A stretch of 35,605 bases of DNA from Bodo saltans (taxonomy: Eukaryota > Euglenozoa > Kinetoplastea > Eubodonida > Bodonidae), in contig CYKH01001907.1 in NCBI GenBank assembly GCA_001460835.1, forward strand, positions 1 to 35,605, read 5' to 3'. Positions within the stretch are counted from its first letter, which is position 1; every line of letters begins with the position of its first letter. Below, piece by piece: positions 2,505-24,291 of the stretch. The position numbers were made by a program, and so were the translations under genes. The notes under the pieces were generated by a model. The model was not told where the DNA came from, searched no databases, and saw nothing but the letters and a program-made list of their open reading frames with translations.

Positions 2505-2538
2505 CCAACACTACTTTCGTGTAGGAAACACATATCCT

Positions 2539-4695: not shown

Positions 4696-5025
4696 ACGTA
4701 CGGAGATACTACAACACAGGAACGAACGTATTTCCAGATTCACAGAAAGGCAAAAAAAAGGAAGAATATTTAGAAGCCCACTTCTCCAATTTTTGGAAAG
4801 CAACTTTCTCGTGTAGCGGTCTCTGCACACTGTTGAGGGCACAAACAGTTCGGAGATAGTTGTTGAGGAGAGGGGGGACTAGCACTTTTTTTTTGCATGA
4901 GATGTGTTGTCTCGAGGGAAACGACGTCATCGTCCAAGAGTTAGCGAAAATAATCAAGGTGAAGTCTTCTCCAAAAGAAAGATAGTCTGGGGGGTGATGT
5001 TCTGGACGCTTGGTAACCGAACAGT
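4696..5025. other. Intergenic region with no supported gene
   Basis: This is an AT-rich 3' flank with short A and T runs. I see no coding frame resembling a family. The right end may contain unrecognisable remains of the zinc-finger relic that starts near 5026. Confidence 0.5.
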
Positions 5026-5226
5026 GCTTGCCAACCATAGGCAGCGTAGCCTTCGCTACGCTGCAGTGGGTGCAAGAAGGGGCTCCTGGGTGATTTCCAC
5101 GTGCAATGCTACCATTGGGAGCCCCCGTACCTGCTGTGCGTCTACTGCGTCCGTGGCAACAAACACAACAAACACGCCGCTCCGAAGAAAGAGTCTGGCG
5201 GCATAGAGCAGAGGTCCATGCGATAA
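5026..5226 (+). pseudogene. Relic of the 3' end of the RBR/ZZ gene (ZZ finger)
   Basis: From about 5062 to the stop at 5224-5226 the reading matches the C-terminal ZZ finger of the intact gene closely: a CSxC pair, then KKGLLGDFHVQCYH, EPPYLLCVYC and RGNKH are shared. One zinc cysteine is changed to Trp (TGG at 5116-5118, equivalent to C683). An in-frame TAG lies at 5047-5049, inside a short hairpin absent from the intact gene. The homology begins at the equivalent of codon 656 and nothing recognisable of the rest of the protein precedes it. It is a broken tandem copy, with a nonconservative change at a metal ligand. Confidence 0.85.
5041..5064. repeat. Perfect 10-bp hairpin with 4-base loop inserted in the ZZ relic
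   Basis: Bases 5041-5050 are the reverse complement of 5055-5064 around a CTTC loop. The intact paralogue has no such hairpin between its homologous flanking sequences (around 4513-4535), so it arose or was inserted in the relic. It introduces the TAG stop. Confidence 0.75.
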
Positions 5227-5656
5227 CTGAGTGCTGAGGCCCATGCCACACTTTTTAGATCTCAACTCGCTCACATTTTTTTTAAAAGCAAATCAAACAA
5301 ACAAACAAACAAACGAACAACCACTTGGGTGGTGCATTCTTTTACGTGTCCGATGGAACGCTGAGGACGCATTTTTTTCTTTGCATCGTGATCAGTGGAG
5401 AGTTTGGAGGATTGAACGAAATTTGTGTGGAAACAATAGATACTTTTTGACCAACACTGCTAATGGATTGAAAGCGTCATTCTTTAACTGACTGAATCTT
5501 AAAATGACTTTGATCGAAATGAGAATTTATTAATTTTGCAATTTTTTATGTCGCATGTTGACTTATACAACCATTAGGACGAATTCCTTACATTCATCTC
5601 CCCTGTGCGCACAACGAGCCACACCATCATCATCATACCATTTCTTGCCAAACTAA
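5227..5656. other. Intergenic region with a CAAA microsatellite
   Basis: No gene is supported here. A (CAAA)n-like microsatellite lies near 5293-5317, followed by AT-rich sequence and, at the right edge, pyrimidine-rich sequence leading to the transporter acceptor. Confidence 0.55.
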
Positions 5657-5667
5657 AGGAACGGTAG
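5637..5667 (+). promoter_or_regulatory. Candidate trans-splice acceptor for the FNT gene
   Basis: Pyrimidine-rich sequence is followed by AGs at 5657-5658 and 5666-5667. The next ATG is at 5671, which opens a frame different from that of the transporter body. This makes 5671, not 5810, the natural first start of the mRNA. Confidence 0.45.
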
Positions 5668-5809
5668 ATAATGTGCAACAACAACTCGTGCCACAGCTGC
5701 CAGTGCAGCGCCAATGCTGCGCAATCAGCAGTTCCCCCGGTCCCTGCCGCCGTGAACCCCGTCACCGGTGGGTTGAGCCTTGTCCTTGACGCTCGGTGGC
5801 ATCACCGAG

Positions 5810-6538
5810 ATGTCCATGCGTGCTGGGTTTGCGAAAACTCACTTCTCATTGGCCAAGACGATCCTTCTGGCGGTCATCGCCGGCGCGTTCGTCGCATTTG
5901 GCGGCCAGACTGTGTTCGCCATCTTGGCGGATGCCACGTCCAACGGCCCCACGAAGGCCCTGGCCGGCTTCTTCTTCTCGGGTGCTCTGATGATCATCGT
6001 CATCCTCGGAGCGGAGCTCTTCACCGGCAACGTGCTGATCCTTATCGCAGTGCTCTCCAAACGAGTGTTCCTGTGGGAGTATCTGTTCGATCTTGTGGTC
6101 GTGTACCTCTCCAACTTATTCGGCGTGATTCTCTTCGCGGTGATCTTCTGGGGTGGCGGCCTGAACGGCTACGAGGGCTCTTACACGTCCCAAGGGACCG
6201 TTGCGTGCAAGACTGCCCTTGGTAAGGCCGAGCTGCACCCGTATCAGGCGCTCCTGCGCGGCATCGGTGCGAACATGTGCGTGTGCTTCGCGATCCTGAT
6301 GTGCCACGCCTCAAAGACGCTGAGCGGGAAGCTCCTTGCGTGCACGTTTCCAGTCGCTTCGTTCGTAGTCGTCGGCCTTGAGCACAGTATCGCGAACATG
6401 TACTTCTACAGCGCAGCAACGCTTCTGCGGTGCCCAGGCGTGACGCAAAAAGCTCTATGGCCGGAGTTGTTCCTGTGCACCGCCGGCAACATTCTCGGTG
6501 CTGTCAAGGACAGGCACAGCATGACCATGACGATGTAG
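5810..6538 (+). CDS. Formate/nitrite transporter (FNT) family channel, ends disturbed
   Basis: The 242-residue frame is a clear FNT/FocA-type channel, which moves small monocarboxylates such as formate or lactate across a membrane as a pentamer. Hydrophobic helices are visible at about 17-40, 49-68, 88-115, 147-166, 176-200 and 218-232. FTGN (71-74) and EHSIANM (191-197, with the central pore His of the family) are conserved. Two things are odd. The first ATG after the likely splice site (5671) opens a Cys/Ala/Pro-rich N-terminus ending NPVTGGLSL in another frame, so a one-base shift near 5771-5800 separates it from the body. At the 3' end, helix 6 is cut short after GNILGA by a non-hydrophobic tail and TAG, well below the usual 270-300 residues. 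A Ser/Pro-rich tail (6701-6883) continues in the same frame downstream. It may be a pseudogene or carry sequencing indels. Family is certain, integrity is not. Confidence 0.8.
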   Translation: MSMRAGFAKTHFSLAKTILLAVIAGAFVAFGGQTVFAILADATSNGPTKALAGFFFSGALMIIVILGAELFTGNVLILIAVLSKRVFLWEYLFDLVVVYLSNLFGVILFAVIFWGGGLNGYEGSYTSQGTVACKTALGKAELHPYQALLRGIGANMCVCFAILMCHASKTLSGKLLACTFPVASFVVVGLEHSIANMYFYSAATLLRCPGVTQKALWPELFLCTAGNILGAVKDRHSMTMTM

Positions 6539-7772: not shown

Positions 7773-8660
7773 ATGTCTCGAACGATGCCCGCTGAGCTGC
7801 GTTCTGCACTGCTCCGCGAAGTTCTTCCCTTTCACCGCGGGTACAACGTCTACCACTCAAAGAGTGCTTGTGTTGCAGCATTGTCGGCGCTGCAACGCGC
7901 AAACTTACCTTGGTGGACCCCTGGCTGTTCACGGTTTGTATCCCGTGTCGCAAACGTGGCAGTAGTTCACGGTGGCGATGGTGGCGGGGCCGGAGGGTTG
8001 TCACCTTCATCTCCTCCAGCTGCCCACCCCATTGTAGTGGTGGAGGGGTTGGATGGGGTTGGAAAGACGACAATGACGACTGCATTGACTCAGAAGTTAG
8101 GTGGCGTGCTGGTGCGCACCCCAGACCCAGAATTGGAGCCCCTGCGTGCACTGTTCAGGTCGTTGGATGAGCCGTTGGCTCGAGCGTTCTACTGTGGGGC
8201 GAATTATCTTGCAGCCGCGCAAGTGACGGAGGCGGTGCTGACCACTCCGGTTGTCCTAGATAGATGGTGGTGTTCCACGTGCGCCATGACCCTTGCAGGG
8301 AAGCCCGGATGCACCGTGCTAGGCCTCCCACCTGCTACCGACCCCATTTATCAATGGCCCAGCGACCTGCCCGCGTTTGACGTTGGTGTCCTGTTGCAGG
8401 TGGACGAAGCCATCCGCCGCCTCCGCATGAAGAGACGGAACGATGAAAATGAGGAGGAAGCGCTGCTAGCCGCCAAGGTGGAAATGAGAGACACGGCAAT
8501 GGAAGCGTACCGCAGATTTGGGTTGCTGACAACAGTTGATATCCCCAATTACATGGTCGCTGTGAACCACACATTAGACTTGGTGGCACAGAAGGGGTTC
8601 TCTGTAAGGCCGAACGCAAAGTTTATCGCCGAGGAGCTCGCAAAGGTCTTGCCTTACTGA
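7773..8660 (+). CDS. UMP-CMP kinase 2-like nucleoside monophosphate kinase (thymidylate kinase superfamily)
   Basis: The 295-residue protein has an N-terminal extension of about 85 residues and then a thymidylate-kinase-like P-loop domain. Walker A is GLDGVGKTT (92-100), preceded by the family's VVE. The DRWWCSTCA segment (from D163) corresponds to DRYWHSTAxYA of CMPK2, and LPPATDPIYQWPSDLP matches the PPAxxPxYQWPxDL block typical of CMPK2, so I prefer it over plain dTMP kinase. It would phosphorylate UMP/CMP or their deoxy forms with ATP. The animal enzyme is mitochondrial. The N-terminus here is moderately basic but not a clear presequence. A charged NDENEEEA segment sits in the lid region. 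ATG 7773 is the first after the acceptor. Confidence 0.82.
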   Translation: MSRTMPAELRSALLREVLPFHRGYNVYHSKSACVAALSALQRANLPWWTPGCSRFVSRVANVAVVHGGDGGGAGGLSPSSPPAAHPIVVVEGLDGVGKTTMTTALTQKLGGVLVRTPDPELEPLRALFRSLDEPLARAFYCGANYLAAAQVTEAVLTTPVVLDRWWCSTCAMTLAGKPGCTVLGLPPATDPIYQWPSDLPAFDVGVLLQVDEAIRRLRMKRRNDENEEEALLAAKVEMRDTAMEAYRRFGLLTTVDIPNYMVAVNHTLDLVAQKGFSVRPNAKFIAEELAKVLPY

Positions 8661-8917: not shown

Positions 8918-9709
8918 ATGGGCCGCAAGTCTACATCGTCTCTCCCCATCGCCCCAACCAAGTCGCAGGAGCCCCCTGCATCGTCACTGCCTGGCAGTTT
9001 GACCCCATTGCTAGTGATATGCGCTGCTGCCGCGGTTGGCTGGAAGTTGTACAAGACGTGCGTTGTTCGAGTTGCACCAGACGTGTTGACGGTTGTGTAT
9101 GACACCCGACGCCGATCTATTCTCACATCGTCGGCAGTCCCGTCGGATGGCGTGCCTGCCAGCACACCCAAAGGACACAAGTCGTTTTCTGCAAACCCGT
9201 TATTTTGGTGCCTGCGCTACGCATGCCGCCCACGATCCTCGTCGTTCCTCATCGCACCGCCGTCCCTTGGCATGTATCAAGTGTTCCGTATTCCGAGGAG
9301 TGCCCTTAGTGCGGCGCAAGGGATTCGTGTGAAGTGCTCCGTGGAGGATGTGATTGTGCGGGATGGAACTGTCAAGATGATCCTCACGGCGTGCGGTTAC
9401 GTCGATGCGCGGGAGCTCGACCGGTATCTTGCGGTGGTAGGCCCAAGCCCGCCGATGGAGGCCATGGCTCGTTGCGTCTCCGATGTCCTCCAAGACTCCT
9501 TCAACGTGACACTGGAGAGGAATGTGGGCCTTCAAGTGACCGCAGGGTTGCTCCTGGACACGAGTAAGTGGGCAGCGGGAGGTGCGTTGATGGAGGCGTT
9601 CTACAGCAAACTGCGGGCACGCATGGTGACTGATTGTTGTGTAGTGCTGAGGGATGTGGTGGTGGAGGCAGTGGAGCTGGTCAGCTCTGCCTCAGCGATG
9701 CTCTCCTAG
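8918..9709 (+). CDS. Single-pass membrane protein of unknown function
   Basis: The 263-residue product starts with a Ser/Pro-rich tail, then one hydrophobic helix (about 29-44) followed by basic residues. The rest is a mixed alpha/beta domain. I do not recognise a family. The arrangement of a short N-terminal anchor, beta-rich middle (MYQVFRIPRSAL, VKCSVEDVIVRDGTVKMIL) and a helix with LDRYLAVVG and VSDVLQDSF faintly recalls SPFH/band-7 proteins such as prohibitins, but no diagnostic motif is visible and I would not transfer the name. The ATG is well placed after AT-rich leader sequence. It is expressed-looking because its frame stays open through GC-rich, codon-biased sequence. Confidence 0.7.
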   Translation: MGRKSTSSLPIAPTKSQEPPASSLPGSLTPLLVICAAAAVGWKLYKTCVVRVAPDVLTVVYDTRRRSILTSSAVPSDGVPASTPKGHKSFSANPLFWCLRYACRPRSSSFLIAPPSLGMYQVFRIPRSALSAAQGIRVKCSVEDVIVRDGTVKMILTACGYVDARELDRYLAVVGPSPPMEAMARCVSDVLQDSFNVTLERNVGLQVTAGLLLDTSKWAAGGALMEAFYSKLRARMVTDCCVVLRDVVVEAVELVSSASAMLS

Positions 9710-10047: not shown

Positions 10048-10065
10048 TTTGTCGTTGTTCCACAG
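10048..10065 (+). promoter_or_regulatory. Pyrimidine tract and CACAG immediately before the BSD gene start
   Basis: The AG at 10064-10065 lies only two bases before ATG 10068. If used, the mRNA would have almost no 5' UTR apart from the spliced leader. The AG at 10020-10021 after a longer pyrimidine stretch is the more ordinary alternative. Confidence 0.4.
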
Positions 10066-10067
10066 TG

Positions 10068-12347
10068 ATGTCCGAGGCTCGCGAAACGTCGGCCTCGCCT
10101 CAAGCGCCTCAACAAGTGCAACAGACGTCGCCGCAAGCCGCCGCCAAAACTCCAAACGGGAAGAGTACCGCAGCAGCATCGTCGCCTCAACAACAAAGCT
10201 CCCCCCTACCCCCGGCAGAAGTGGCCCTCATCAGCAACCCTATTCCCTCCTTCAGCGTCTTTCAGTGGGTGCCAAGAGGTGTTCGCAACCTTAACCGACG
10301 CAACAAACTAAGCTCCCTCCCTTTCTGGTTCCCTAACGACACAATGCGTCTTCACCAGTTCCGGCTCGTGCTTCTTCGGGGCGTCGTGAAGGAGGATCGG
10401 GAGGAGGATGATGCGGTGGCTGTGTTCCTTGAGTACATCCCACCACCCCCAACCCCCTCCACCACCTCATCGACGACGCACCCTAAAGGCTGCCGAGTGA
10501 CAATGAGGTTGCTCAATCGTGCGTTTATGGACGAGGGAAGCCGTGCAGGGGATGTGATTGCGGAATCCACAGCAACTTTAGATGAAGTGGAGCGTCAAGT
10601 AGCGTTCCGTGAATTTATGCTGCCGAAACATTTAGCAGACGTGCAGTTTGTAGGAGATGACGGCGCCACAGTGATTTTAGAGGTGTCCGTCATGACTGGT
10701 GTCAATGTTGTCGCGGAGTCGGTTGCGAAGTCCGCAGGGTCGTTGTGGAGCACGTTTTCGAGCATTTCATCATCGGTAACAACTTTCGTCAAGGACGCAG
10801 TGCAGTCCACCCGCCTCGATCAGCGCGAGGAGTTTGACGACCAATCAAGCAATGGGGGAAGTGGATTAGATGCGCTCAACGCCGCGAAGCAATCTGCAAC
10901 TTCATTTTTCAGTTCTCTTTTAGACTCAACTGTAGGAGGTAGTAGTGCTGGTGGTGCTGCGGCGTCATCCTCATCATCAGGCGCCCCTCCTCAGCGGGAA
11001 CTACCGTGGGATACAGTGCCTGAGCGGTGGCATGGTAGAGAGGAGCAGTGGAGAAACCTCCTTTCTGTCCAATTAGTAGAGGACGAGAACACGTTCCTAG
11101 TCGGTGTCAGTCGAGGCATTCAACCAGACGAACAATTACTCCTCACACAATACGGGCTGAACCACCGCGCCATCACCGCGGCTGCGTCACTATTCGACTA
11201 CGACCGTGATGTTCATCAAGGACTGCTATCGCTTGCCGCCTTGAGAGCCCAGCGGTATCGCCTTGTGCCTCAAAAAATCAACGATGAAATGTTTTGGGCT
11301 ACGTTTATGTGGAAAATCGCGTCCCTGTCCACTTGTGGAACGCACGATCAAGCTCAGTTGCTGCTCAGCATCATCAGCGCTCCACTTGTCGTTCCACCTC
11401 ACCGACCAGCAGGAGACGCTGGGAGTGGGAGTGGCGCCGATGGAGGAGATGCGGCCTCCACACTGACAGCGACCGCTGGTGCCTTCTCGTCGTGGGTGCA
11501 GACAGCAGCGAGGGGCATCACGTCGACTGTGCGATCCACCGGCGGCATTATGAAAGGCCACACCCCGCCAACAGATGAGGAAGTGACGATAGCTGTCAAA
11601 GAGGCCATCGAGTCGTCCGCCGCACTTGAAGATTACCTTGACGATGGTGATGACGACACCACACATCATGGTGAGGACAGCGGAGAAGATGAAGAAGGCG
11701 GTGGTGGTGGTGGTGGTGTGTTGATGATCTCTGCTGTCAAACACTGCGATAGCCAATTAGAGAATTTGCGTAAGCTGAAGCAACGCCAAGTGCCAGAGTC
11801 GTTGGAGGCTTCCGTCGATGCGGCTGTGAGTGCCTTGGAAAGTGTGTTGAGGCGCCGCGATGAGCAAAAAGCCAACAAGAGCGTCGCAGCGCCTGCACTT
11901 CATGCACAGCCTCATGCGCCTCTTCATGCGCAGCCTGATGAACCTCTTCTGGTTGACGCATTGGAAACTGAGCATGCGGCGCAAGGCGAGCCCACAGCGG
12001 AGGTCCAGCGCGACGAAGCACCTGCCTCGGACGAAGTGACCTCACAATTTGATGCAGATGATGGTACCGTTGAAGTTAAGACAAATGATGCAGCGCAGCC
12101 ACTCCAACCCGCAGGAGAGGCGGAGGAAGAGGAGGCCACAACGGCGCCACCCGCCGCCACCAATGCCACCGATGGGTCGCCGTTGTTCGACGCGTCGTTT
12201 GAACGACTGCCCTCTATCGACGACATCGCAACACCAGCAGCACAGGTTGTTGCTGCCGGCGATTCGGCGCAACAACGCAAAGGTCCAACCAGCTCGGGAA
12301 AGAAACTTGAGTTTGCGCCGATGCCATGGGAGGAGGATGACGACTGA
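10068..12347 (+). CDS. BSD-domain protein
   Basis: The 759-residue protein contains a BSD domain at about 365-425, seen from the helical spacing and the hallmark Phe-Trp pair (F409-W410 in DEMFWATFMWKI). The preceding PWDTVPERWHGREEQWR and the DENTFLV region resemble the stretch that precedes BSD in plant and protist members. BSD domains occur in TFIIH p62, synapse-associated and DOS2-like proteins, and many members have unknown roles. Around it the N-terminus is Gln/Ser/Pro-rich, with a beta-rich region at about 85-220 that could be a C2-like fold (weak), and Ser-rich linkers. The C-terminal third is acidic and low complexity, with Gly, Asp/Glu and Ala runs, a short LHAQPxxP repeat, and a final PMPWEEDDD. 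Cellular role is not deducible from sequence. Overlapping antisense frames are shadows. Confidence 0.78.
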   Translation: MSEARETSASPQAPQQVQQTSPQAAAKTPNGKSTAAASSPQQQSSPLPPAEVALISNPIPSFSVFQWVPRGVRNLNRRNKLSSLPFWFPNDTMRLHQFRLVLLRGVVKEDREEDDAVAVFLEYIPPPPTPSTTSSTTHPKGCRVTMRLLNRAFMDEGSRAGDVIAESTATLDEVERQVAFREFMLPKHLADVQFVGDDGATVILEVSVMTGVNVVAESVAKSAGSLWSTFSSISSSVTTFVKDAVQSTRLDQREEFDDQSSNGGSGLDALNAAKQSATSFFSSLLDSTVGGSSAGGAAASSSSSGAPPQRELPWDTVPERWHGREEQWRNLLSVQLVEDENTFLVGVSRGIQPDEQLLLTQYGLNHRAITAAASLFDYDRDVHQGLLSLAALRAQRYRLVPQKINDEMFWATFMWKIASLSTCGTHDQAQLLLSIISAPLVVPPHRPAGDAGSGSGADGGDAASTLTATAGAFSSWVQTAARGITSTVRSTGGIMKGHTPPTDEEVTIAVKEAIESSAALEDYLDDGDDDTTHHGEDSGEDEEGGGGGGGVLMISAVKHCDSQLENLRKLKQRQVPESLEASVDAAVSALESVLRRRDEQKANKSVAAPALHAQPHAPLHAQPDEPLLVDALETEHAAQGEPTAEVQRDEAPASDEVTSQFDADDGTVEVKTNDAAQPLQPAGEAEEEEATTAPPAATNATDGSPLFDASFERLPSIDDIATPAAQVVAAGDSAQQRKGPTSSGKKLEFAPMPWEEDDD
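11896..11946 (+). repeat. Short LHAQPxxP coding repeat in the BSD protein
   Basis: Two adjacent imperfect copies encode ALHAQPHAP and LHAQPDEP. This is a small slippage-type repeat within the low-complexity tail. Confidence 0.6.
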
Positions 12348-12439
12348 GAGGACTTTCCGCCCTTTTTTTTTTGTGTCCAGCTTGCGATGCGCTCCCAAAA
12401 ATATTTTCTGCCTCTGTGAATTTCGTCGCGTTGTTTCTC

Positions 12440-12484
12440 ATCCGTTCTGTATCCATCCTATTTTTTGGTTTTCCTTTCAACAAG
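12440..12484 (+). promoter_or_regulatory. Long pyrimidine-rich tract and AG before the ATPase-nuclease gene
   Basis: A T/C-rich stretch ends with AG at 12483-12484, 19 bases before ATG 12504. Another strong T-tract with AG at 12379-12380 lies upstream, but it would place an out-of-frame ATG (12386) first, so the nearer site is preferred. Confidence 0.5.
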
Positions 12485-12503: not shown

Positions 12504-15287
12504 ATGCTTAGGCGTTTTGTTTCGGCTCCATGGACCGCAGCAGCTCAGACTCGTTTGTTTCGTGTTGCGGATGTGCAGCTCGAGCGACTTCTCCGCACCC
12601 AGAGTGCCCGCATCCCATCGTATGCCTTCTCTGTCAATGATTTAATCCAGCAGTACAGACTTGACTATCCACTTCTCGCTGAGGATCAAACGCTGGCGGC
12701 GTGGGCGACGAACGAAGCCTCTAAGAAGAAACATCTAATGCCTGGCTTTGCTAAGTTTGATAGTGATCCTCACGTGAAAGACGCAACAAAAACGGTCAAA
12801 TTGTTTGCGCGCAACTCTAAGGCTCTGGATGTCCTCGATTCGCTCGGAATCACAAATCTTGAGGAGTTTGGCAGAAGCACTCGTGCAGAGCGCAGGAAGG
12901 TGGGTAAACGTGCTCTGAATTTTCTCAAAGCGAGTCTGCGAGAAGCAAAAGAAAAAGTTAACCATGTCCGTGAACTGCGGAAGTGGCTTGACCCTCAGTT
13001 CGATGCTTTTAAAAAGCGTGTTGACGGCCTCAACAGCGGTGTTCATGAGCCGAAGCCTTACTCAGCGCACCTGAACATGATGGAGTTGACGTACCGCCAC
13101 ACGTACGCCGACGGGCAGCGCATGCTTGGAAGCGACCGCAAGAAAACACTAGAGACGCTCTTGGACCGCGCATTCCCCGAGTCGGAGAAAAAAGAGGACA
13201 ATCCCATTAGCTACCTTGTGGCTGCTCCACGCCAAGGTAAATCGCTGATGCTGGATGAGGTCGTCGCCAACGCCGCGTCGCGGGATAAAAACTATTTCGG
13301 CGTGGCCATCTCGTTCACCAGCGCAACTCCTCTCACGAAGCCAATTGACTGTGCCCGCGACGTGCGCTCTGAGTTTTGGGGACGCGTTGTGTACTCGTTG
13401 TATCGTGCAATGTTTCCAAAGGACAGCGTTCCTCATGCCTCCGGGGGACCTGTGTCCTTCGGAGCGTTCACCCGTCTGCCGTTTTTTAAGTCTATTGACA
13501 AGGACGTTGCATTCTCGTTGGCTGACAAGCTAGGGCTCGGGAGAGTGGTTATTGCGGCGGATGAGATTTCAAGAGTCATATCACAAATTGATAAATGGCG
13601 CAATAAGGAGGAAAAAGAATTGGCCATGACGTCGCTGACAGCGATGTACACGGCACGTTGGTCACTGCTGTGTTCTGGCTTCACGATGAACGACGCGATG
13701 ATGATGTGCGCGCACAGTACGATGGGTACCTACAGTGGCCGAGACACAAAATGCGAGTTCTTGTTTACGTTGACGAGTGGCACTCGTGGTGATTTTGCAC
13801 AAATGGCACGATTCCTGGAGAAGTCGTACCCCGGTGATGCGTTTACCCCAGCGCGTCGCGGCCTGTACGAGATCGTGAAAAACGTTCCTGGATACTTTGG
13901 ATTATGGATCGAAATGTCTGAAAAGTTCATCAACAAGGAGCCAGGGTATCCGACCGATGTTAGTGGAATCGAAGATCTGCACCCTCCTATGATTGGAGCT
14001 ATCGTCAACTTCCTCAGGACCAACCCGCACCTTTTCTCTGACTACTGGCGTGCGGTGGCCAACCGCAAAGGTGACGCGTTGAAGGTTGCGCATCATGGCG
14101 TTCTCGAAAATCTGGAGGCGATGGGAACTGTCCTCGCCGGGGCGTCCTTGCTCGACGATCGCCGCTACCTGAGCCCGTTGGTTTATGCGCACCCGTCGCT
14201 CAGTCGTGCACGCGAATACGATCTGATTTTCCTTGCAGTGGAGAAACTCCATGCGCAGGGGCAGTGGACAAATATGGCCAGAGGAAAGGCACTTACGATG
14301 GCCATCCAGGTCAAACTTGCCCTTACGGCGGCGTACGTGAACGACCCGATCGCCAGTAGAATCATGGCGAATAAGAATTTGCCGATTGTGACGTCGAGGA
14401 CTTTGATCGAGCGTTTGTGCGGAGAACGCCACGTGATTGTTCCGGGTGCGCACACTTTCGACGAGGATCTTGCAGCAGAATTTCCAGACTACGGGATTGA
14501 TTTTCCGCTTACCAGCGTGGCCAAGAGCGATGTTGAAGCGAGTGACGCAAATGCAAGCGACGCTGAGCGACGAGACGTTGGTGCGGCGGAGAAGGCAATT
14601 GTGAAAAAGGTGAGCGCATTTCCGGCTGTGTGGTCTGAAAAAAATAATCAGAATGAGAATATTCAGGCAACCAAGGAGAAGCAGGCGAAGCGCCTCGCAG
14701 AGAATATCGCAGCGCTCAACTCCGCTCACTTCTCCGTCCTCAGCCCACAGTGCATCTGCAACCCGGGATGCGACGTAGCGATGTTCTTCCGTGTCGGCAA
14801 CAAGAATGTGGCGGTTGCTGAGGACGATCGTCGTGAGAAAGTCTTGTTTCTCTTCGAGGCGAAGTACCACAGCCCAACAACGCCGATCAGCGATGAAGAC
14901 GTTTCGATGAAAGCGCTCGACTCACTGAACGGTGTTCTTCCATACGTGATCCCGTGCAACGTCCGCCGTGTCTGCTTTGTGTTCTGCAACCCGGCGCTTG
15001 GAGTAGAAGGGAAAAGCTACCTTGATGGTGATGAGGAGGTCGCTGAGCCGTCTCATAGCCAGCCCCAACGAGCTCCTTTTTTGATGCAGAAGGAACTTTC
15101 GTCCCCCAGTAACGACCCTTTCAAAACGCTCAGCGGCGTGATGGGGGAACTTGGGCGGCTCGGTTGCACCACTTCGCTTCACACTGTGTGGAGTGAGAAG
15201 GAGTGGCGTAACCTATTGGATAGCCTGTACTTTATCATCCCTGACACGGACGAGGAGGACCCCATTCCCTCCAGCAAGCCACAATGA
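12504..15287 (+). CDS. Crinkler/RHS-like P-loop ATPase with C-terminal PD-(D/E)XK nuclease signature
   Basis: The 927-residue protein has an N-terminal alpha-helical region (about 1-230), then a STAND/AAA-like NTPase. Walker A is APRQGKS (241-247) and Walker B is VVIAADE with D353-E354, about 107 residues later, followed by an Arg and a helix. Near the C-terminus, GCDVAMFF (D757) and a hydrophobic strand ending in E785-A-K787 (FLFEAKY) fit the D...ExK core of restriction-endonuclease-fold nucleases. NTPase plus REase-fold is the architecture described for the Crinkler-RHSP class of eukaryotic effectors, which includes trypanosomatid retrotransposon-hot-spot proteins. The first 20 residues are Arg/Ala/Ser-rich and free of acids, like a mitochondrial presequence, though RHS proteins are usually nuclear. 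An Ala/Asp/Ser low-complexity hinge and a Lys/Glu/Gln-rich helix separate the two halves. It could instead be a novel NTPase-nuclease conflict protein. Architecture is well supported by motifs; function is inferred. Confidence 0.72.
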   Translation: MLRRFVSAPWTAAAQTRLFRVADVQLERLLRTQSARIPSYAFSVNDLIQQYRLDYPLLAEDQTLAAWATNEASKKKHLMPGFAKFDSDPHVKDATKTVKLFARNSKALDVLDSLGITNLEEFGRSTRAERRKVGKRALNFLKASLREAKEKVNHVRELRKWLDPQFDAFKKRVDGLNSGVHEPKPYSAHLNMMELTYRHTYADGQRMLGSDRKKTLETLLDRAFPESEKKEDNPISYLVAAPRQGKSLMLDEVVANAASRDKNYFGVAISFTSATPLTKPIDCARDVRSEFWGRVVYSLYRAMFPKDSVPHASGGPVSFGAFTRLPFFKSIDKDVAFSLADKLGLGRVVIAADEISRVISQIDKWRNKEEKELAMTSLTAMYTARWSLLCSGFTMNDAMMMCAHSTMGTYSGRDTKCEFLFTLTSGTRGDFAQMARFLEKSYPGDAFTPARRGLYEIVKNVPGYFGLWIEMSEKFINKEPGYPTDVSGIEDLHPPMIGAIVNFLRTNPHLFSDYWRAVANRKGDALKVAHHGVLENLEAMGTVLAGASLLDDRRYLSPLVYAHPSLSRAREYDLIFLAVEKLHAQGQWTNMARGKALTMAIQVKLALTAAYVNDPIASRIMANKNLPIVTSRTLIERLCGERHVIVPGAHTFDEDLAAEFPDYGIDFPLTSVAKSDVEASDANASDAERRDVGAAEKAIVKKVSAFPAVWSEKNNQNENIQATKEKQAKRLAENIAALNSAHFSVLSPQCICNPGCDVAMFFRVGNKNVAVAEDDRREKVLFLFEAKYHSPTTPISDEDVSMKALDSLNGVLPYVIPCNVRRVCFVFCNPALGVEGKSYLDGDEEVAEPSHSQPQRAPFLMQKELSSPSNDPFKTLSGVMGELGRLGCTTSLHTVWSEKEWRNLLDSLYFIIPDTDEEDPIPSSKPQ

Positions 15288-15575: not shown

Positions 15576-16979
15576 ATGGCTTCCGTGCGAGCAATTAGCA
15601 TCACAAGCACTGTTGGCGCTCAGTTGACCTCTGCGTCATCGGCAGGGCACATTGCGGGGAGGCAATCTTTCAACTATTTCAACTTCTTCACACTTGCTGG
15701 ATCACTTTTGATATCAGGCGGCCTGGTTGCGTTGTTCTTCAACATTGGATCAGTAACTGGGTTGAATGCAACGATGATCTCATGGCCAGTGGCAGTCCTG
15801 CTGTTCTTAATGTTGTCCAACGACCTCAGTGGGACGCTGGCGTGTCGCGCGTTGGCCGGATTCTTTGTGTTGGCCATTGCAGGTCTCGTTGTGTTTATCA
15901 GTGCCGCCAGCATGGGCCTTGAGGTGCCGGGGGGTATCGCCAACTTCACATGCAACAGCACTTCCTTGTCTAGCGCGTTGAATGGCAGCGGCACGATTGA
16001 GGCAGAAGAGAGAAACTTTTTTACGGGCTGTGATCGCGGGTGGTCGGAGCTGCTCAACTATAACGGGATGCGCGTAGGTCGCAAATGTTGCGTGAAGGTA
16101 GATATCCGCAACTTGAACTGCCAAGGGACTGGCCTGCGGCTTGTTGCGGATGCAACCGCGAACACGCAAGTCCTCACCGACACCAGCGAGCGTGAGGCAG
16201 CGGTGCGCTGTTGCCCGTCTGTGGGAGCTGAGGTGACTCCGACGGGCTATGCATCGATGATCACCACGGCCCTCTCCGCCACATTGATGTCAATTTTAGT
16301 GAACCTTCTGCGTCACCTCGGCGTCTTCCGCGCTCTGATCACGTCGCCCCTGCAATCCTTTTTAGCTTGCATGAGTGGGCTTTCAGAGGGATGTGGATCG
16401 TGCTTAATTGCTCTCTTTGGCCTGTGTATCAACAAACGTGTGCTGCTTGGAGACCGTGGCCGATCTGTCCGATCTCGAGAGAAACTGACAGTGTCCTCTG
16501 AGTTGGTGAACACACTTACCTCTGCACTGTCCTCAACATTTAACGGGCCTGCGACGATGGTGCCCATGATGGACAAGGAGGAGCAACCAGCTGCTGCTTA
16601 TCAAGAGAAAGAGGCAGCTTCTGGCGTGACCGAAGTGACGGAGTTCGCCGTCGACGGGAAGCACGTGATGTCATTCGAAACTGCAACGGCAGTGACCATG
16701 TGCGGTCGATACTCCCTTGTCTTTGGCCATGCCATCAGCGGCGCGCCGCACGAGCTGCTGTACGATATGAAGTACCAGGCGGGCATTCACGGGCCAGTGC
16801 GCATGAAACATGAGCACAACGACGCTGGAGCAGAGACACGCGACGCTGGTCAACGACTCACGTCACGGATCCCTAGTCGAGGCCGAAACGTGTGGTTTTC
16901 GGAGTGTTCTCGCTTTGTGGTGTACGAACATGATGACCCGCAGGAACACTGCAATGTCATCAGTCAATGTCAACGGTGA
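15576..16979 (+). CDS. Tetraspanin-like four-helix membrane protein; probable 5' part of a larger frameshifted gene
   Basis: The 467-residue frame has hydrophobic helices at about 35-58, 66-82, 91-111 and 226-250. Between helices 3 and 4 is a large loop (112-225) with seven cysteines including two adjacent pairs (C171-C172, C212-C213) and potential N-glycosylation sites (N123, N127, N136). Topology and the double Cys resemble tetraspanins, but the CCG motif is replaced by CCV and CCP, so this is an analogy. After helix 4 come about 200 residues with beta-propeller-like strands (VMSFETATAVTMCGRYSLVFG, split by turns; NVWFSECSRFVVYEHDD). These lack a natural end: the frame stops at TGA 16977-16979 while the next membrane-protein frame already runs beneath it from 16810. 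No splice acceptor lies between the two. I infer one long gene interrupted by an indel. Confidence 0.72.
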   Translation: MASVRAISITSTVGAQLTSASSAGHIAGRQSFNYFNFFTLAGSLLISGGLVALFFNIGSVTGLNATMISWPVAVLLFLMLSNDLSGTLACRALAGFFVLAIAGLVVFISAASMGLEVPGGIANFTCNSTSLSSALNGSGTIEAEERNFFTGCDRGWSELLNYNGMRVGRKCCVKVDIRNLNCQGTGLRLVADATANTQVLTDTSEREAAVRCCPSVGAEVTPTGYASMITTALSATLMSILVNLLRHLGVFRALITSPLQSFLACMSGLSEGCGSCLIALFGLCINKRVLLGDRGRSVRSREKLTVSSELVNTLTSALSSTFNGPATMVPMMDKEEQPAAAYQEKEAASGVTEVTEFAVDGKHVMSFETATAVTMCGRYSLVFGHAISGAPHELLYDMKYQAGIHGPVRMKHEHNDAGAETRDAGQRLTSRIPSRGRNVWFSECSRFVVYEHDDPQEHCNVISQCQR

Positions 16980-19900
16980 CCACGAAAGTTGTCCATTAGA
17001 GTTCCCCTTGCCGCGTTTCTCGTGCGCTGAGTATGGCGGCGTGCAGTTTGACGAGGAGCTTGTCTGCAGTTCCGCTTTGTGCGCACGTGACGGCGTCAAC
17101 TATTTTATCGCAGTGAAGAACAATCCGAGAGAAGTTGTGATGGTGATGATGGAGGAAGTGTTTAGGCAACAGCAGCGTAGTAGTAGGGTGAAGAAACACG
17201 ACAACGATGCGAGTAGTCCCAGCAGTGATGATGATGATGATGATGAGGGAGCGACACTTGTCACCGTGAAACCATGTCCGGAGGTGGACGAAGAATACGC
17301 GTACTTGAGCAGTTCTGGCTTTTTGGTGCTTGCTCCCAGCACCGGTGGCGCAGTACAAGTTTACGATCTTCTGTCAGCAGATTGCAAACTAGTAGCGTCA
17401 CTCGAACTTCCTGAGAATATCACGTCACTTGATTACAGAACTGTGGAGACTCGTGGCGATGCGTTGGTGATCACAACGTCAGAAAACGAAAGACATCAGG
17501 AATGGATTTTGCTCACTATTGGCAAACCAGGAACTGCCGGCGACGCGACTCTGCTGCCCACAGCCACCATGCGATCCCTTCACACGTCAGACGTCTACGA
17601 CGCAACGAAATTTGAAGTGGTGAATAAAGGTACCGGAGTGATGGACGTGCGCGGCTTCTCCCGTCGTGCCGTTCTTGTCCCTTCAGGGGGAGTTGCAATC
17701 GTCATGAACACAAGCGGCGACAGCCTCGCGATGAATAAGTTTGTGTACTACGACGTCAGTTCAACCAGCGTCACCCACACGTGGGACTTTCCTGCCGATA
17801 CTAGTATTGAGGAATTTTTGGTGTGTCGGAATCAAGAGGGCTCACTCGTCGTCGCTGCCTACGACGGCACCCGCGTTTACCTCAAGAACGCAGCTGACGG
17901 CACGGACCTTGTGAAGCCGGTGGAGCAAACTCAGTACCGCTGCATGTCGGCTGCAGCCAACGAGCAATTATTCTTCATTCACACGAGAGACGCGGTTGAG
18001 GTCTACAGCACTTCCCTCAAAGGCCCCACGCTTGAGGATCATCTTCAAGCAACAGTGCTCGGTGACTTCTACACTGCAATCATTTCGAGCGACGGTTTAC
18101 TGCTTGCATGCGATTGCTACAACGAATGGCTGCTCACGACAACAACCGGATCGGGACTGTGCACCATCGCCTCACCGCAAAACGATATTGTCGTCACTGT
18201 GACGAATAGCACGACAGTGACGCTGAACGTGGCGACGTGGAAGTTGGGATGCGAAGATTGCACAACGCGGGGATTGTTTTGCCAAAAGCGTGTCACCCAA
18301 GGTCGCTACGCAGAATGTGTGGGATCGCACGAGGTGCTGCTCCCTGGTGCACCACGCGCGCTGCATTTGACGGAAGACGCGACGCTGCTGGTCGTTCACT
18401 CCGCCGACGGTCAAATTTTATTGTTTGACACGTCTGCAGCGACGTCAGCGAGACAAAAACAACGCAAACCATCGTCTACGGCGGCAGCAGTTGGCGACGA
18501 CGTGACTGAGTTGTGCGAACTAGAGTCGGAACTGCAGCGATCCTTGTCGGCAGTGCGCCGGATTCACACGGATGGAATCGGAGAGCAAGTGCGCTACTCA
18601 CTGGTCCGGTGCTCCACCTCTTCGAGTGGTGTTACTGGCGTCGTGGGACTCGTACGGGGAGAATGCGTTTACAATATCGAACACGGTGCGACGTTGACCG
18701 CGCACATCGTCTATGTGCACAAAGGTTCAGTCGTGGGGTATGAGACGCTCTCACTGCTCTCCAAAGTCCCTCGATCGATGCTGCAGCCCATCCCGATCAG
18801 TGCCGACGATAGTTTGTGCTGTAGTTGTCATGTTTGCGATTGTAATAGCGAAGAGGACGACTTTGGCACTTCAGCAGAAGCTCGAGAGATCCCTCCGATG
18901 TTTGATATGGAGTTGGGAGATGAGGAAGGCTCTGTTGTTAACGTCGAGGATATCGCTCTGAACTGCGACGGAACAATATTGGCAGTGTGGCTAAGGCGCC
19001 ACTCAAAAGTGCTTGTGTTCCCAGTATCTCGCAACCTTGCCGCTCAATGCAGCGACGAAGCGGTGGAAGGGACCAAGGCACTTGAAGCGCTGATACTGGA
19101 ACCGAGCCCGCTGCTCGCTGAGGTTTACATCGATGCATCAATGCGATCTTCCTGTACTGGTCGACTTCAGTTTCTTGCCGCAGAGCCATGTGCGCTAGTG
19201 AGGTACTCCCGTCCCAGTCAACATTGGACGTACCATATAGAACAATGGGACTTGTCTCCCAAGCAGCAACAACAATTGACGATGATTACCACCACATCAG
19301 TTGAGGCCCCAGCAGTCGTTTCTATGGGCGACAACAAGGAAGACGAGGCAAGCCTGGCACTGGAACCAAAACCACGTGCACTCGACAACCAACTTGAAGA
19401 AGAAAACAAGAGCCCCACTGACTTCATCTACACGGAGCCGGTCCGCACGGATCGTGTGGGGTACATGAGCGGTGATCCAGCGTTATGCAGCCTTGTCATG
19501 AGCGCCTCAGGTAACCACATGACGCACCTCTCCACCAACGGTGTCTCGCTGTACCGACGCGCCCCTTCCGGCGACGACAACGACGAGGAGGCGAACCGCT
19601 TCTTTTGGTGGAGTGCGTTTGTGGCGGACTTGTATGCCCCGTCTGAGTATCTGCTCATCCCCTGCCTTTGCCTTGTCTTCGGATGCATTTCTTCGATTGT
19701 AGTGACGGCAATGAATGCTGAAGGCTTTTCGGGTTTTATCTCTCGTGTCGTCAACGGTTCAACACTTCAGAATTGGGTCGACGTTGTGACCGTGTTTGTG
19801 TGCAGAAGTGTGATTGTGCGCTCGGAGTTTCTCCCCATCTGCGGGGATGCGGTTGCCGTGATTGTCAGTAGCAACGACCCAGTCGTTCGTGGGCAGGAGC

Positions 19901-20865
19901 GAAAAGACCTTTCTTGGAACCTTCTCGTAGGTCAAGCGTTTTTCGTTGTTCTGTACCCGGTGTACATTTACATGTTCCCTGGACTGGCGTATGTCATGTC
20001 ATCTCTGAACCCACTTCTCTTTGTGGTTGGATTCTTTGGATATCTTGCGGCTGTGTTCTTAGTGGTTCGACGATCGTTTGATCGCACGCGCAAGGTAGCA
20101 GCAATTGCTGCTGCACCATCGAACTCGACGACATCAGATAAGCCGCCCATGGAACTTCCGCAGCGCACCTTCTCACAGCGGTGGTCATCGTGGACACACA
20201 TCATCAGCACCAACGTGCATTTCTACGCCGTGATCCTGCGGCTGTTTCTGCTTGCGTTCATCATGATGATCAGCTGCAATTTTACGCTGCAGGTCGCGAC
20301 ACGCATGAGCACCAACGCTGGTCTGATGATGATGGGTTCCGGGGATTATGCGCGTTACTACGATCCCTGCTTGCAATACAGTAACACTCCTTGTGACACG
20401 TGTACTGCCCATTCGGGATGCTCGTATTGCGCAACGTCGCGGCAATGTGTGGGCAGCAGCCGATCTGACTCCCCGTGCGGCGCCATCGAGAGTGCTGGGA
20501 CACGTGAGTGCTATGCGTACTCGAACGCAACTTGCGCATTGTACGACGATGACGGCCCGTTTTGCGTCGGTTGGAGCAACTGTGCGTACTGCAGCGCCTC
20601 TGGCAACTGTACTCGCACCTTTGAGTCAAATTGCAGCGTGCCGATTGTCACTGCAACCAACCATTCGTTCTCGCCAACATACTTCACCACGAACTCCACC
20701 AACTCAGATAAGTGGTGGGGAAACCTTCCGTACCTAAGCGACGACACCGTCGCCTACGCTCAGTTGCTGTTCTACGAGCTGCAAATCAGCTCAGGCACGT
20801 GCAGTGCGGCGAGGGTCACGGAGACTACCTGGGCGAACGCAAATTACATTACGTCGCTGTTCTAG
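16954..20865 (+). CDS. Large beta-propeller, multi-TM and Cys-rich (PSI-like) membrane protein; probable 3' part of the same gene
   Basis: From ATG 16954 the frame gives 1303 residues. The same frame is open from an ATG at 16810, inside the preceding CDS. The first about 850 residues are rich in propeller-type repeats (for example ALVITTSENE, LVVAAYDGTRVYL, LLVVHSADGQILLFD), with an acidic run of Asp near 92-97. Then come hydrophobic helices at about 899-920, 989-1013, 1020-1038 and 1089-1112. A Cys-rich module follows (about 1137-1229; CDTCTAHSGCSYCA, CVGWSNCAYCSASGNC) that strongly resembles PSI (plexin-semaphorin-integrin) repeats in tandem. The protein looks like a cell-surface or endomembrane receptor-type protein typical of bodonid membrane-protein families, but I cannot name the family. 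Starting mid-propeller without an acceptor suggests it is the continuation of 15576-16979 (see findings). Confidence 0.75.
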   Translation: MSSVNVNGDHESCPLEFPLPRFSCAEYGGVQFDEELVCSSALCARDGVNYFIAVKNNPREVVMVMMEEVFRQQQRSSRVKKHDNDASSPSSDDDDDDEGATLVTVKPCPEVDEEYAYLSSSGFLVLAPSTGGAVQVYDLLSADCKLVASLELPENITSLDYRTVETRGDALVITTSENERHQEWILLTIGKPGTAGDATLLPTATMRSLHTSDVYDATKFEVVNKGTGVMDVRGFSRRAVLVPSGGVAIVMNTSGDSLAMNKFVYYDVSSTSVTHTWDFPADTSIEEFLVCRNQEGSLVVAAYDGTRVYLKNAADGTDLVKPVEQTQYRCMSAAANEQLFFIHTRDAVEVYSTSLKGPTLEDHLQATVLGDFYTAIISSDGLLLACDCYNEWLLTTTTGSGLCTIASPQNDIVVTVTNSTTVTLNVATWKLGCEDCTTRGLFCQKRVTQGRYAECVGSHEVLLPGAPRALHLTEDATLLVVHSADGQILLFDTSAATSARQKQRKPSSTAAAVGDDVTELCELESELQRSLSAVRRIHTDGIGEQVRYSLVRCSTSSSGVTGVVGLVRGECVYNIEHGATLTAHIVYVHKGSVVGYETLSLLSKVPRSMLQPIPISADDSLCCSCHVCDCNSEEDDFGTSAEAREIPPMFDMELGDEEGSVVNVEDIALNCDGTILAVWLRRHSKVLVFPVSRNLAAQCSDEAVEGTKALEALILEPSPLLAEVYIDASMRSSCTGRLQFLAAEPCALVRYSRPSQHWTYHIEQWDLSPKQQQQLTMITTTSVEAPAVVSMGDNKEDEASLALEPKPRALDNQLEEENKSPTDFIYTEPVRTDRVGYMSGDPALCSLVMSASGNHMTHLSTNGVSLYRRAPSGDDNDEEANRFFWWSAFVADLYAPSEYLLIPCLCLVFGCISSIVVTAMNAEGFSGFISRVVNGSTLQNWVDVVTVFVCRSVIVRSEFLPICGDAVAVIVSSNDPVVRGQERKDLSWNLLVGQAFFVVLYPVYIYMFPGLAYVMSSLNPLLFVVGFFGYLAAVFLVVRRSFDRTRKVAAIAAAPSNSTTSDKPPMELPQRTFSQRWSSWTHIISTNVHFYAVILRLFLLAFIMMISCNFTLQVATRMSTNAGLMMMGSGDYARYYDPCLQYSNTPCDTCTAHSGCSYCATSRQCVGSSRSDSPCGAIESAGTRECYAYSNATCALYDDDGPFCVGWSNCAYCSASGNCTRTFESNCSVPIVTATNHSFSPTYFTTNSTNSDKWWGNLPYLSDDTVAYAQLLFYELQISSGTCSAARVTETTWANANYITSLF

Positions 20866-21372: not shown

Positions 21373-22062
21373 ATGAGGAGAATTTGCGCTCTCACCTCCA
21401 TAAAATTAGCAACACCTGTTTCATCCAGTGTGGTGGGAGCGGTATGTGCGGCGCCCGCGCTCGTCACCTCTCATCGTTGCCTCACCGTCAACGGCCGCGT
21501 CACGAACGAGGACCGAAGGTGGTGGCTAGTTCACCTAGAATGCTCGCCGGACGTCACGCCCGGGACGTTTATTGCGTGGCTAGACTGCTGCGGGACGCAT
21601 ACCACGAAGAAGTTGATTGAGAGGAACGTGTGGACCATCGAACAAGTCGCCACGATGGATTCTGATACGGTGGACTCGTTGAAATACAGCGAAGGCTGCT
21701 TGAAGATGGATATTGTATGGGAGCACGCTAGGACGGTGATTGGCCCGTTGAAGCAGCGTGAGGTGAGCGGCGGCGTGGAGTCGGAGCTGCAGGACCGTAT
21801 TCAACAGCTGCGCAAGAAGCGTGAACTTGAGCGGCGCCGTGAAGAGATTATTAGCGAACGTGTGCAGACAAGCAGCGATCGCGAGGCGACACTTGAGAAG
21901 CTGCGCGCAAACATCGCTGCCAAGAAGGCAGAATTGTTGAAGAAGCAGCAGGAGATGCAAAGACAACGTAGTGGCGCCGATGTCGCAACGGAAGAGGAAG
22001 CAGCGCAGCCTTCTGTAGGCGACGTGATGAACGATATGAGCAGTGGTTCTTCCCGGAAGTAA
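21373..22062 (+). CDS. Conserved-looking coiled-coil protein with probable mitochondrial presequence
   Basis: The 229-residue protein begins MRRICALTSIKLATPVSS and has no acidic residue until about position 46, a composition that fits a mitochondrial targeting peptide. A compact central domain (about 40-125; WWLVHLECSPDVTPGTF, TIEQVATMDSDTV) has no family I recognise. It ends in a basic, heptad-like coiled coil (about 137-198; Lys/Arg/Glu-rich, ELERRREEI, KKAELLKKQQEM) and an acidic-Ser tail. The layout resembles small kinetoplastid mitochondrial ribosome or RNA-editing accessory proteins, but no motif proves this. The start is fixed by the acceptor just upstream. Confidence 0.72.
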   Translation: MRRICALTSIKLATPVSSSVVGAVCAAPALVTSHRCLTVNGRVTNEDRRWWLVHLECSPDVTPGTFIAWLDCCGTHTTKKLIERNVWTIEQVATMDSDTVDSLKYSEGCLKMDIVWEHARTVIGPLKQREVSGGVESELQDRIQQLRKKRELERRREEIISERVQTSSDREATLEKLRANIAAKKAELLKKQQEMQRQRSGADVATEEEAAQPSVGDVMNDMSSGSSRK

Positions 22063-22287: not shown

Positions 22288-24291
22288 ATGTCCAAGAAGC
22301 CCATCTTCGATAAGATTCTGATTGCAAACCGTGGCGAGATCGCCTGCCGTGTGATTAAGACGTGCCGTCGTCTTGGCATCAAGACGGTTGCGATTCATTC
22401 CACCGCCGATGAGCAGGCCAAGCATGTCCGCATGGCGGACGAGGCTGTTTGTGTAGGTCCCCCAGCTAGCGCCGAGAGCTACTTGGTGATCGAGAAGGTG
22501 ATTGATGCGTGCGTCAAGACGGGCGCTCAGGCTGTGCACCCAGGTTACGGATTTCTGTCTGAGAATGAGCATTTCTCAGCGGCATTGAAGAAGAACAACA
22601 TCGTCTTCATCGGCCCTGACGCCGACGCGATTGCTGACATGGGCGACAAGATTCATTCCAAGAAGCTCGCCAAGGCTGCGGGCGTTACCACCATTCCAGG
22701 ATATATCGGTGAGATCCTCTCCCACAAGCAGCTGCTCGAGGTGGCCAACGAGATTACCTACCCCGTGATGGTGAAGGCCTCCGGCGGTGGCGGCGGCAAG
22801 GGCATGCGCGTTGCATACAACGACACGGAGTGCGTGGAGTTCTTCGACATGTGCAAGGAGGAGGCCAAGGCCGCCTTTAACAACGACAAGATGTTGGTGG
22901 AGAAGTTCATTGAGCACCCCCGTCACATTGAAGTGCAAGTCATCGCGGATCGTCTCGGCAATGCAGTGTACTTGAATGAGCGCGAGTGCTCCATCCAGCG
23001 CCGCAACCAGAAGGTGCTCGAGGAGGCACCCAGCGAGCTCATTGACGCCAAGACTCGCAAGGCGATGGGCGAGCAGGCCGTAGCATTGGCCAAGGCGGTC
23101 AACTACGTCACCGCCGGTACCGTCGAGAACGTCGTGAACCCCAAGCGTGAATTCTTCTTCCTTGAGATGAACACCCGCCTGCAGGTGGAGCACCCCATCA
23201 CCGAGTTGATCACCGGTGTTGATATCGTCGAGCAAATGATCCGCGCCTCCGCTGGCCTCCCCCTTAGCATCACTCAGGACGACGTCAAGATCCACGGTCA
23301 CGCCACCGAGGCTCGAGTGTACGCCGAGGACCCCATGAAGAACTACTTCCCGTCCATTGGTCGCTTGTCCGGCTACGAGGAGCCCGTTGGTGAAGGCGTC
23401 CGTGTGGACTCAGGCATTCTCGAGGGATCCCAGATCTCCGTGTACTACGACCCTCTGATCGCGAAGCTCTGCACGTGGGGTGCCACTCGTGATGAGTCCC
23501 TCGACCGCATGGAGAAGGCGCTCGACGAGTACGTCATCCGAGGCCTGCGCCACAACGTCTGTCTGTTGCGCGACGTGATCACGCAGGAGAAGTACCGCAA
23601 GGCTGAAATCACCACTGCGTACCTCGCCGAGACGTACCCCGACGGCTTCAAGAAGGCACCCATCAACGAGGCGGAGCAGCAGCTGCTCCTGTCGACCAGC
23701 GCAGTGATCCGCGCCATTAGGGAGGCTGCGTTGTACCCCACCAAGGGCGGGCTTATCAGCACCCGCCTAGCAGCGTCTCTCGGCTTTGCAGATGCGGCGT
23801 CACGTTCCACATTTGATATTGTCCAGACCGCCGCTACCACGTACGAGGTATCCAACGTTGCCACCGGCGAGAAGAAGATTCTTGACGTGCAGTGGAAGCG
23901 TGACTTCCCTGTCGTCCGTGTGACGGAGAACGGCAAGGAGACTGTGCTGCAGTTCTGGGGCAGCGACGAGGTCACCTACAACATGCAGATGAAGGGTACC
24001 ACCTTCGCGGTGACCGTCATGACGCCCCAGCAAGCGGAGCTGTCGGGCTTCGTGCCAGAGCCGAAGGTCAGCGTCAACGCCAAGCAAGTGCTGTCCCCCA
24101 TGCCCGGCGTGATTGTTCACTTAAATGTCGAAGTTGGCCAAACTGTTGTTGCTGGATTTGAGCTGTTCACACTTGAGGCCATGAAGATGCGCAATAAGAT
24201 TCGCTCGGAGGCCGACGGTAAGATCAAGTCCATCAACGTGAAGACAGGTGCTACCGTTGATGACGGTCAACTGATCATCGAGTTTGAGTAA
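22288..24291 (+). CDS. PCCA: Propionyl-CoA carboxylase alpha subunit (biotin carboxylase plus biotin carrier)
   Basis: The 667-residue protein is collinear with mammalian and bacterial PCC alpha. It opens with FDKILIANRGEIACRVIKT, the biotin-carboxylase N-domain. The Gly-rich ATP-grasp loop follows at K163-ASGGGGGKGMR, then RHIEVQV, ERECSIQRRNQK and EMNTRLQVEH (293-302; catalytic Arg region). After a linker comes the biotinyl domain with E630-A-M-K633-M; K633 is the biotinylated lysine. It carboxylates propionyl-CoA with the beta subunit (not in this window), normally in the mitochondrial matrix, feeding methylmalonyl-CoA metabolism. Similarity to PCCA is higher than to methylcrotonyl-CoA carboxylase in blocks such as YEEPVGEGVRVDSG. 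No mitochondrial presequence is visible before FDKIL, and no in-frame start precedes ATG 22288. Strong GC-ending codon preference suggests high expression. Confidence 0.93.
   Translation: MSKKPIFDKILIANRGEIACRVIKTCRRLGIKTVAIHSTADEQAKHVRMADEAVCVGPPASAESYLVIEKVIDACVKTGAQAVHPGYGFLSENEHFSAALKKNNIVFIGPDADAIADMGDKIHSKKLAKAAGVTTIPGYIGEILSHKQLLEVANEITYPVMVKASGGGGGKGMRVAYNDTECVEFFDMCKEEAKAAFNNDKMLVEKFIEHPRHIEVQVIADRLGNAVYLNERECSIQRRNQKVLEEAPSELIDAKTRKAMGEQAVALAKAVNYVTAGTVENVVNPKREFFFLEMNTRLQVEHPITELITGVDIVEQMIRASAGLPLSITQDDVKIHGHATEARVYAEDPMKNYFPSIGRLSGYEEPVGEGVRVDSGILEGSQISVYYDPLIAKLCTWGATRDESLDRMEKALDEYVIRGLRHNVCLLRDVITQEKYRKAEITTAYLAETYPDGFKKAPINEAEQQLLLSTSAVIRAIREAALYPTKGGLISTRLAASLGFADAASRSTFDIVQTAATTYEVSNVATGEKKILDVQWKRDFPVVRVTENGKETVLQFWGSDEVTYNMQMKGTTFAVTVMTPQQAELSGFVPEPKVSVNAKQVLSPMPGVIVHLNVEVGQTVVAGFELFTLEAMKMRNKIRSEADGKIKSINVKTGATVDDGQLIIEFE

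Follow-up and report, generated by a model that had tools for sequence, protein, structure and literature searches.

The window analysed here (35,605 nucleotides of Bodo saltans DNA, which make up the whole of contig C755) carries an ORF at 12504..15287 (+) that encodes, from its ATG, a protein of 927 aa (P0001). We consider M1 the likely start, since an AG lies 19 bases 5' of this ATG and the next methionine (residue 79) lies past N-terminal sequence that is common to the paralogues. The pyrimidine-rich stretch that ends in this AG looks, from its composition, like a trans-splice acceptor. The features of the locus are as follows:

12434..12484, + strand: pyrimidine-rich stretch with terminal AG 19 bases 5' of the ATG (read from the sequence)
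12504..15287, + strand: NTPase plus nuclease-like protein P0001 (927-aa ORF; paralogues; dN/dS)
12504..12569, + strand: presequence-like N-terminus, residues 1-22, starting MLRR (copy alignment; control N-termini)
13224..13244, + strand: Walker A APRQGKS, residues 241-247 (sequence; copy alignment; profile alignment)
13545..13565, + strand: Walker B VVIAADE, residues 348-354 (sequence; copy alignment; in register with the bacterial Walker B)
13659..13685, + strand: WSLLCSGFT, residues 386-394, a probable sensor-1-like strand (similar in the aligned copies)
13875..13895, + strand: VKNVPGY, residues 458-464 (identical in all three undisrupted copies)
14676..14993, + strand: putative PD-(D/E)XK core, residues 725-830 (conservation; secondary structure read from the sequence)
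14772..14774, + strand: D757 (sequence; copy alignment)
14856..14864, + strand: E785-A-K787 (sequence; copy and profile alignment)
15150..15230, + strand: C-terminal block GCTTSLHTVW.E.EW..LLDSLY, residues 883-909 (present in decayed copies too)

The translation bears out the motifs of the original prediction: the Walker A, the Walker B AADE about 107 residues further on (residues 351-354, with D353 located 107 residues past K246) and the D757/E785/K787 triad (within GCDVAM...LFEAKYH) all lie where they had been read, and the fact that relatives keep them argues against a chance origin.

The main ORFs of the window are long and lie on the same strand, with a GC content of 0.555 in the ORFs counted vs 0.456 elsewhere. 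Bodo saltans is described, in the part of PMC2621209 drawn on here, as having GC-elevated, intron-free genes that lie close together and show no strand switches. A biotin-carboxylase-type protein (22288-24291) scored 998 bits with PDB 8sgx vs 695 for the next chain; we take 8sgx to be from Leishmania tarentolae. The spliced-leader exon pattern gave 0 matches, which speaks either against a trypanosomatid or for repeat loss. The gene had been placed in a housekeeping cluster, a fair description where the wider flanks are concerned (genes of TMPK-like, GT11, propionyl-CoA carboxylase-like and kinesin type), but of the near neighbours three (8918-9709, 15576-16979 and 16810-20865) had no Pfam match and the fourth (10065-12347) had a sub-threshold BSD match alone. 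The ORFs at 15576-16979 and 16810-20865, both with hydrophobic stretches, overlap in different frames and may represent either a single gene whose frame is broken or a pair of genes.

The impression of a single-copy gene proved wrong. Searching its own genome (29.3 Mb in 934 contigs) with P0001 returned 22 matching stretches on 11 contigs, and the counts derived from them are lower bounds. The family occupies at least 11 places (on C755, which is the window, C562, C642 twice, C114, C563, C877, C643, C314, C560 and C561); the most divergent copy recovered the same 11 places when used as the query, and the P0001 query alone added a 36-residue scrap on C11. Three copies are undisrupted over near-full length, namely those of the window and the two of C642 (C642a and C642b, the second of which stops near residue 914, where its contig ends). 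At least 5 of the 11 places are disrupted or decayed: C562 has a single in-frame stop, C114 a frame broken by a 256-bp tandem duplication, C877 several stops, and C643 and C561 are remnants. The remaining copies, C563, C314 and C560, are truncated at the edges of their contigs (C314 at the contig start, C563 at about residue 306). The C877 copy (L016 4230-6166) looks mosaic, as its front is closest to C642a (39% aa identity; the window protein gives 29%) and over the tail it shares 88% DNA identity with C562, which suggests exchange between family members. Judged by these alignments, the gene belongs to a dispersed, partly decayed multicopy family that would turn over as copies are duplicated, exchange sequence and decay. 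The C114 stretch (L014) holds near-adjacent direct duplications of 97-315 bp at 1273-1909, 3720-3914, 5158-5698 and 8107-8618, that is, four within a single 10-kb stretch (one of them breaking the family member), which are either real or an assembly effect.

The GKS of the Walker A was found in all six copies with an open frame at that position (window, both C642 copies, C562, C114 and C563) and is gone from the decayed C877. The Walker B DE is kept in 4/6 copies, the exceptions being C642a (AANE), an otherwise intact copy that thus lacks the Asp, and C114 (AADD). D757 is present in five of the eight copies that reach it (window, both C642 copies, C562 and C877), being replaced by G in C114 and gone in C643 and C314; the ExK is present in six of eight (window, both C642 copies, C877, C643 and C561) and altered in C562 and C314. 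All three residues (D757, E785 and K787) are retained in 3/3 undisrupted near-full-length copies.

Selection was estimated (NG86) between the window copy and the open pieces of the other copies. With dS mostly from 1 to 2, near saturation, the dN/dS values are rough: 0.31 against C642b, 0.27 against C642a, 0.33 and 0.36 against the first and second pieces of C562, 0.36 against C563, 0.45 against the first piece of C114 and 0.26 against the C877 tail. By region, the comparison with C642b gave 0.22 for the NTPase, 0.26 for the REase, 0.38 for the middle and 0.46 for the N-terminal 180 aa. Between C562 and C877, both disrupted, the tails (155 codons) gave 0.74. We read the ratios of the window copy as signs of purifying selection.

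The N-terminus is free of acid for about 20 residues, as originally described: the first acidic residue of P0001 is at position 23, and four R/K fall within the first 20. An M[LI]RR start with 0 acidic residues and 3-5 R/K in 20 recurs in 6/6 copies with a readable open-frame N-terminus (in C563 an in-frame ATG lies upstream of the MLRR), and the R-x-F at residues 17-19 aligns with R-x-[FY] in four of the five others. A simple presequence-like rule (0 acid and >=3 R/K in the first 20 residues) was passed by all five family ORFs counted, as well as by C563. Among 37 other ORFs it was passed by 5, including two F1-like subunits of the same genome. The latter are ATP-synthase-family ORFs that start MRRFTQRVVPATAAVAARFQS and MLSRVQSAAIRGLGLRSAAT and that we assign to F1-alpha and F1-beta; the ORFs that we assign to V-type subunits start MGHDEV and MSSNPFESE. 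The hydrophobic moments of the family N-termini (0.23-0.38) are unremarkable. Mitochondrial targeting is thus supported in so far as a basic, acid-free start is kept in the paralogues and resembles that of two F1-ATPase-like subunits, import itself being a prediction from this start. A neighbouring ORF (21373-22062) has a basic, acid-free, presequence-like start as well (MRRICALTSIKLATPVSSSV...).

The NTPase reading stands, since the Walker A and B are kept in copies and the profile score of this part lies above every control; a P-loop NTPase at residues about 230-470 is well supported by the alignments. The whole family aligned with 16 bacterial PDDEXK_9 ORFs (from 16 of 18 loci in two genomes; L146 has no ORF >400 aa and L155 was dropped as its picked ORF was unrelated) with an hhalign score of 48.2 (P 6.4e-5; probability 64, or 8 by the other column rule); the match covers residues 231-455 and puts both Walker motifs in register. 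The NTPase part (the per-part profiles are each built from the 5/9 family rows covering >=40%) scored 37.6 against the same 16 proteins, vs a maximum of 24.8 and a mean of 15.7 for 60 column-permuted controls and 18.5 and 18.7 for the reversed-profile controls. With 50% match columns (-M 50) the scores were 34.0 for the whole and 31.2 for the NTPase part (maximum of 20 permuted controls, 25.7). The profiles do not favour one P-loop class: the score falls with the column rule, and plain AAA proteins reach 37.0-40.7 over about 23 columns at the Walker A.

The C-terminal PD-(D/E)XK reading fared less well, as its motif is found in all undisrupted copies but the profile test does not point to a nuclease specifically. 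Against its bacterial counterpart, the nuclease part reached 19.7 (permuted maximum 18.6), with ExK aligned on ExK, vs 20.8 against the bacterial NTPase part, i.e. the wrong domain. Under -M 50 its top match (21.0) lay in the front half of the bacterial proteins and the stretch bearing E785 and K787 ranked second (17.5), and the stretch aligned with DUF4143 proteins lacks the ExK. Because the wrong domain scored above the right one, we put less weight on an NTPase-nuclease and more on a C-terminus of another kind. The proposed convergence of D757, E785 and K787 was put to AlphaFold, which, run on residues 690-927 and 161-659 without relatives, returned models with pLDDT of 35.6 and 34.6; at about 35 both models are unusable and give no view on the convergence. 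Read by eye, the order of elements is helix (E733), strand, strand (D757), strand (E785-x-K787), helix and strand (RRVCFVFCN), as would be expected of a PD-(D/E)XK core. A PD-(D/E)XK nuclease is therefore a possible reading whose remaining support is the conservation of D, E and K, fold and profile leaving it unestablished.

Membership in the Crinkler/RHS group was not borne out, as RHSP (PF07999), RHS_N (PF20445) and Trypano_RHS (TIGR01631) had no hmmscan match in P0001 or in nine family alignment rows (Pfam, NCBIfam); the genome searches for the RHS models, run without a positive control, gave 0 matches. The Pfam matches of P0001 and the family rows include no Crinkler-named family, and Pfam presumably contains a model for the Crinkler N-terminal ubiquitin-like header domain. 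In the open-licence literature nothing was found for 'Crinkler' with 'Bodo saltans', and the match for 'Crinkler' with 'kinetoplastid' was a review of plant-infecting protists. The other HMM matches (Pfam, NCBIfam, PADLOC, PHROGs) were weak, each in one of nine sequences, and were rejected as noise, the best being JetC (E 0.0075, P0001 residues 115-185), followed by NirJ1 (0.014), CRAL_TRIO_2 (0.016) and phrog_2043 (0.024). Relatives in the PDB (best E 0.6 by sequence and 0.016 by a 3-row profile, where an apolipoprotein matched a helical stretch near the N-terminus) were likewise taken as noise, and none were confirmed in viral contigs or prokaryote genome contigs. Thus, as far as the sequence comparisons go, the family appears to fit no named family compared.

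Among known systems, the PDDEXK_9 (PF08011) proteins share the Walker A/B register and a D...ExK-like C-terminal motif but differ in being about 510-585 aa long, in the weakness of the profile similarity and in nuclease parts that align within noise. Their N-terminal AAA-ATPase-like domain we take to be PF09820, and the two-domain PDDEXK_9 match had no hmmscan counterpart in the window protein. Bacterial DUF4143 (9 ORFs, from 9 of 30 loci) and AAA proteins (12 ORFs, from 12 of 30) align at the Walker A region, but over 23-25 columns only; ATPase_2 (2 of 8 loci) had too few to judge. The CR NTPase-REase class of Zhang et al. is, in the excerpted part of PMC5289972, multicopy and dispersed and combines a P-loop NTPase, an intervening segment and a REase-like motif, as our family would, from which the window protein differs in having no RHSP, RHS_N or Trypano_RHS match. 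With trypanosome RHS the family shares a multicopy state with a large disrupted share (here at least 5 of at least 11 places). Two copies are interrupted 3' of the P-loop, where an RHS-like retroelement hot spot would lie: C114 is broken by its duplication and C563 runs to its contig end, and no retroelement was apparent in these alignments. T. cruzi RHS, whose role the consulted part of PMC7563717 describes as unknown, is given there as predominantly nuclear, vs the mitochondrial-type N-terminus of the window protein.

We regard as genuine a constrained, multicopy family of NTPases and possible nucleases with a conserved presequence-like start. Its best single reading, which we hold tentatively and at less than even confidence, is that of a mitochondrion-imported NTPase-nuclease family, probably acting on kinetoplast nucleic acid. 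Here, a nuclear-encoded protein would be imported through a short, cleavable presequence, and its P-loop domain (about 230-470), driven by NTP, would gate a nuclease of the PD-(D/E)XK type at the C-terminus (about 700-830), in analogy to the CR/NTPase-REase model of PMC5289972; the presumed substrate would probably be mitochondrial (kinetoplast) DNA or RNA. Such a family, with its organelle-type N-terminus and in what may be a free-living relative, would offer a tractable comparison for RHS and a candidate for an enzyme that acts on kinetoplast DNA. A bolder version, in which these imported NTPase-nucleases are cousins or forerunners of RHS and behave as selfish or conflict proteins by attacking or policing kinetoplast DNA, we consider quite unlikely; if true, it would point to an organellar origin of the enigmatic RHS family in a free-living relative.

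The alternative we take most seriously, although it too is on the unlikely side, keeps the mitochondrial P-loop NTPase and replaces the nuclease with an unrelated or inactive fold, D757/E785/K787 being coincidental. That the profile test picks out no nuclease in particular speaks for it, as do the copies in which the D (3/8) or the ExK (2/8) is lost; these losses, however, fall in the disrupted C114, C643 and C562 and the contig-cut C314, whereas every undisrupted near-full-length copy has D, E and K. Somewhat less probable still is a divergent protein of the RHS type (Crinkler-RHS), at work in the nucleus or on chromatin, whose N-terminus resembles a presequence only by chance. It would account for an NTPase followed by a REase-like motif and for a multicopy family with many decayed members and exchange between copies, and would agree with 'a predominantly nuclear location' of T. 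cruzi RHS (in the cited portion of PMC7563717), but the same portion calls RHS genus-specific to trypanosomes, the RHS models gave no match in hmmscan or in the genome searches (these without a positive control), and the presequence-like start recurs in every readable open-frame copy.

A still or recently mobile selfish element with its own nuclease appears to us improbable, even if the copies are dispersed and many are decayed. Two short repeats would favour it: one of ~135 bp (83-86% identical) from the end of the C642a copy, which occurs twice more on the contig (L010 1787-1926, L010 4620-4753 and L011 916-1053), and another of ~130 bp, 76% similar, that lies 3' of the C877 copy and of the C314 copy. 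Apart from these, the DNA alignments revealed no long flank common to the copies, the window copy having none in common with the others. The copies are flanked by ordinary genes (a Cid1-type polymerase, an ABC-2 transporter, a squalene epoxidase and a WD40-polycystin protein), and no transposon domain occurs in the ten neighbours that were scanned out of more than 30 ORFs (six of the ten have no Pfam match). Most copy pairs are also old, with dS at or above about 1; the C562/C877 tails, by contrast, are recent (dS 0.12).

Several repeats occur near the start of the window. A 92% identical palindrome (2-98) lies at the contig start and is possibly an assembly-end artefact, and positions 137-558 recur with 65% DNA identity at 3185-3626. 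The first ORF seems to be a truncated part-copy of the protein encoded at 2335-4695, which has Cys-rich, zinc-finger-like stretches and no Pfam match; at and after the end of the latter ORF lies a 78% identical direct repeat (4499-4667 vs 5022-5198). The ORF at 5780-6538 encodes a formate/nitrite transporter (Pfam, 1.8e-51).
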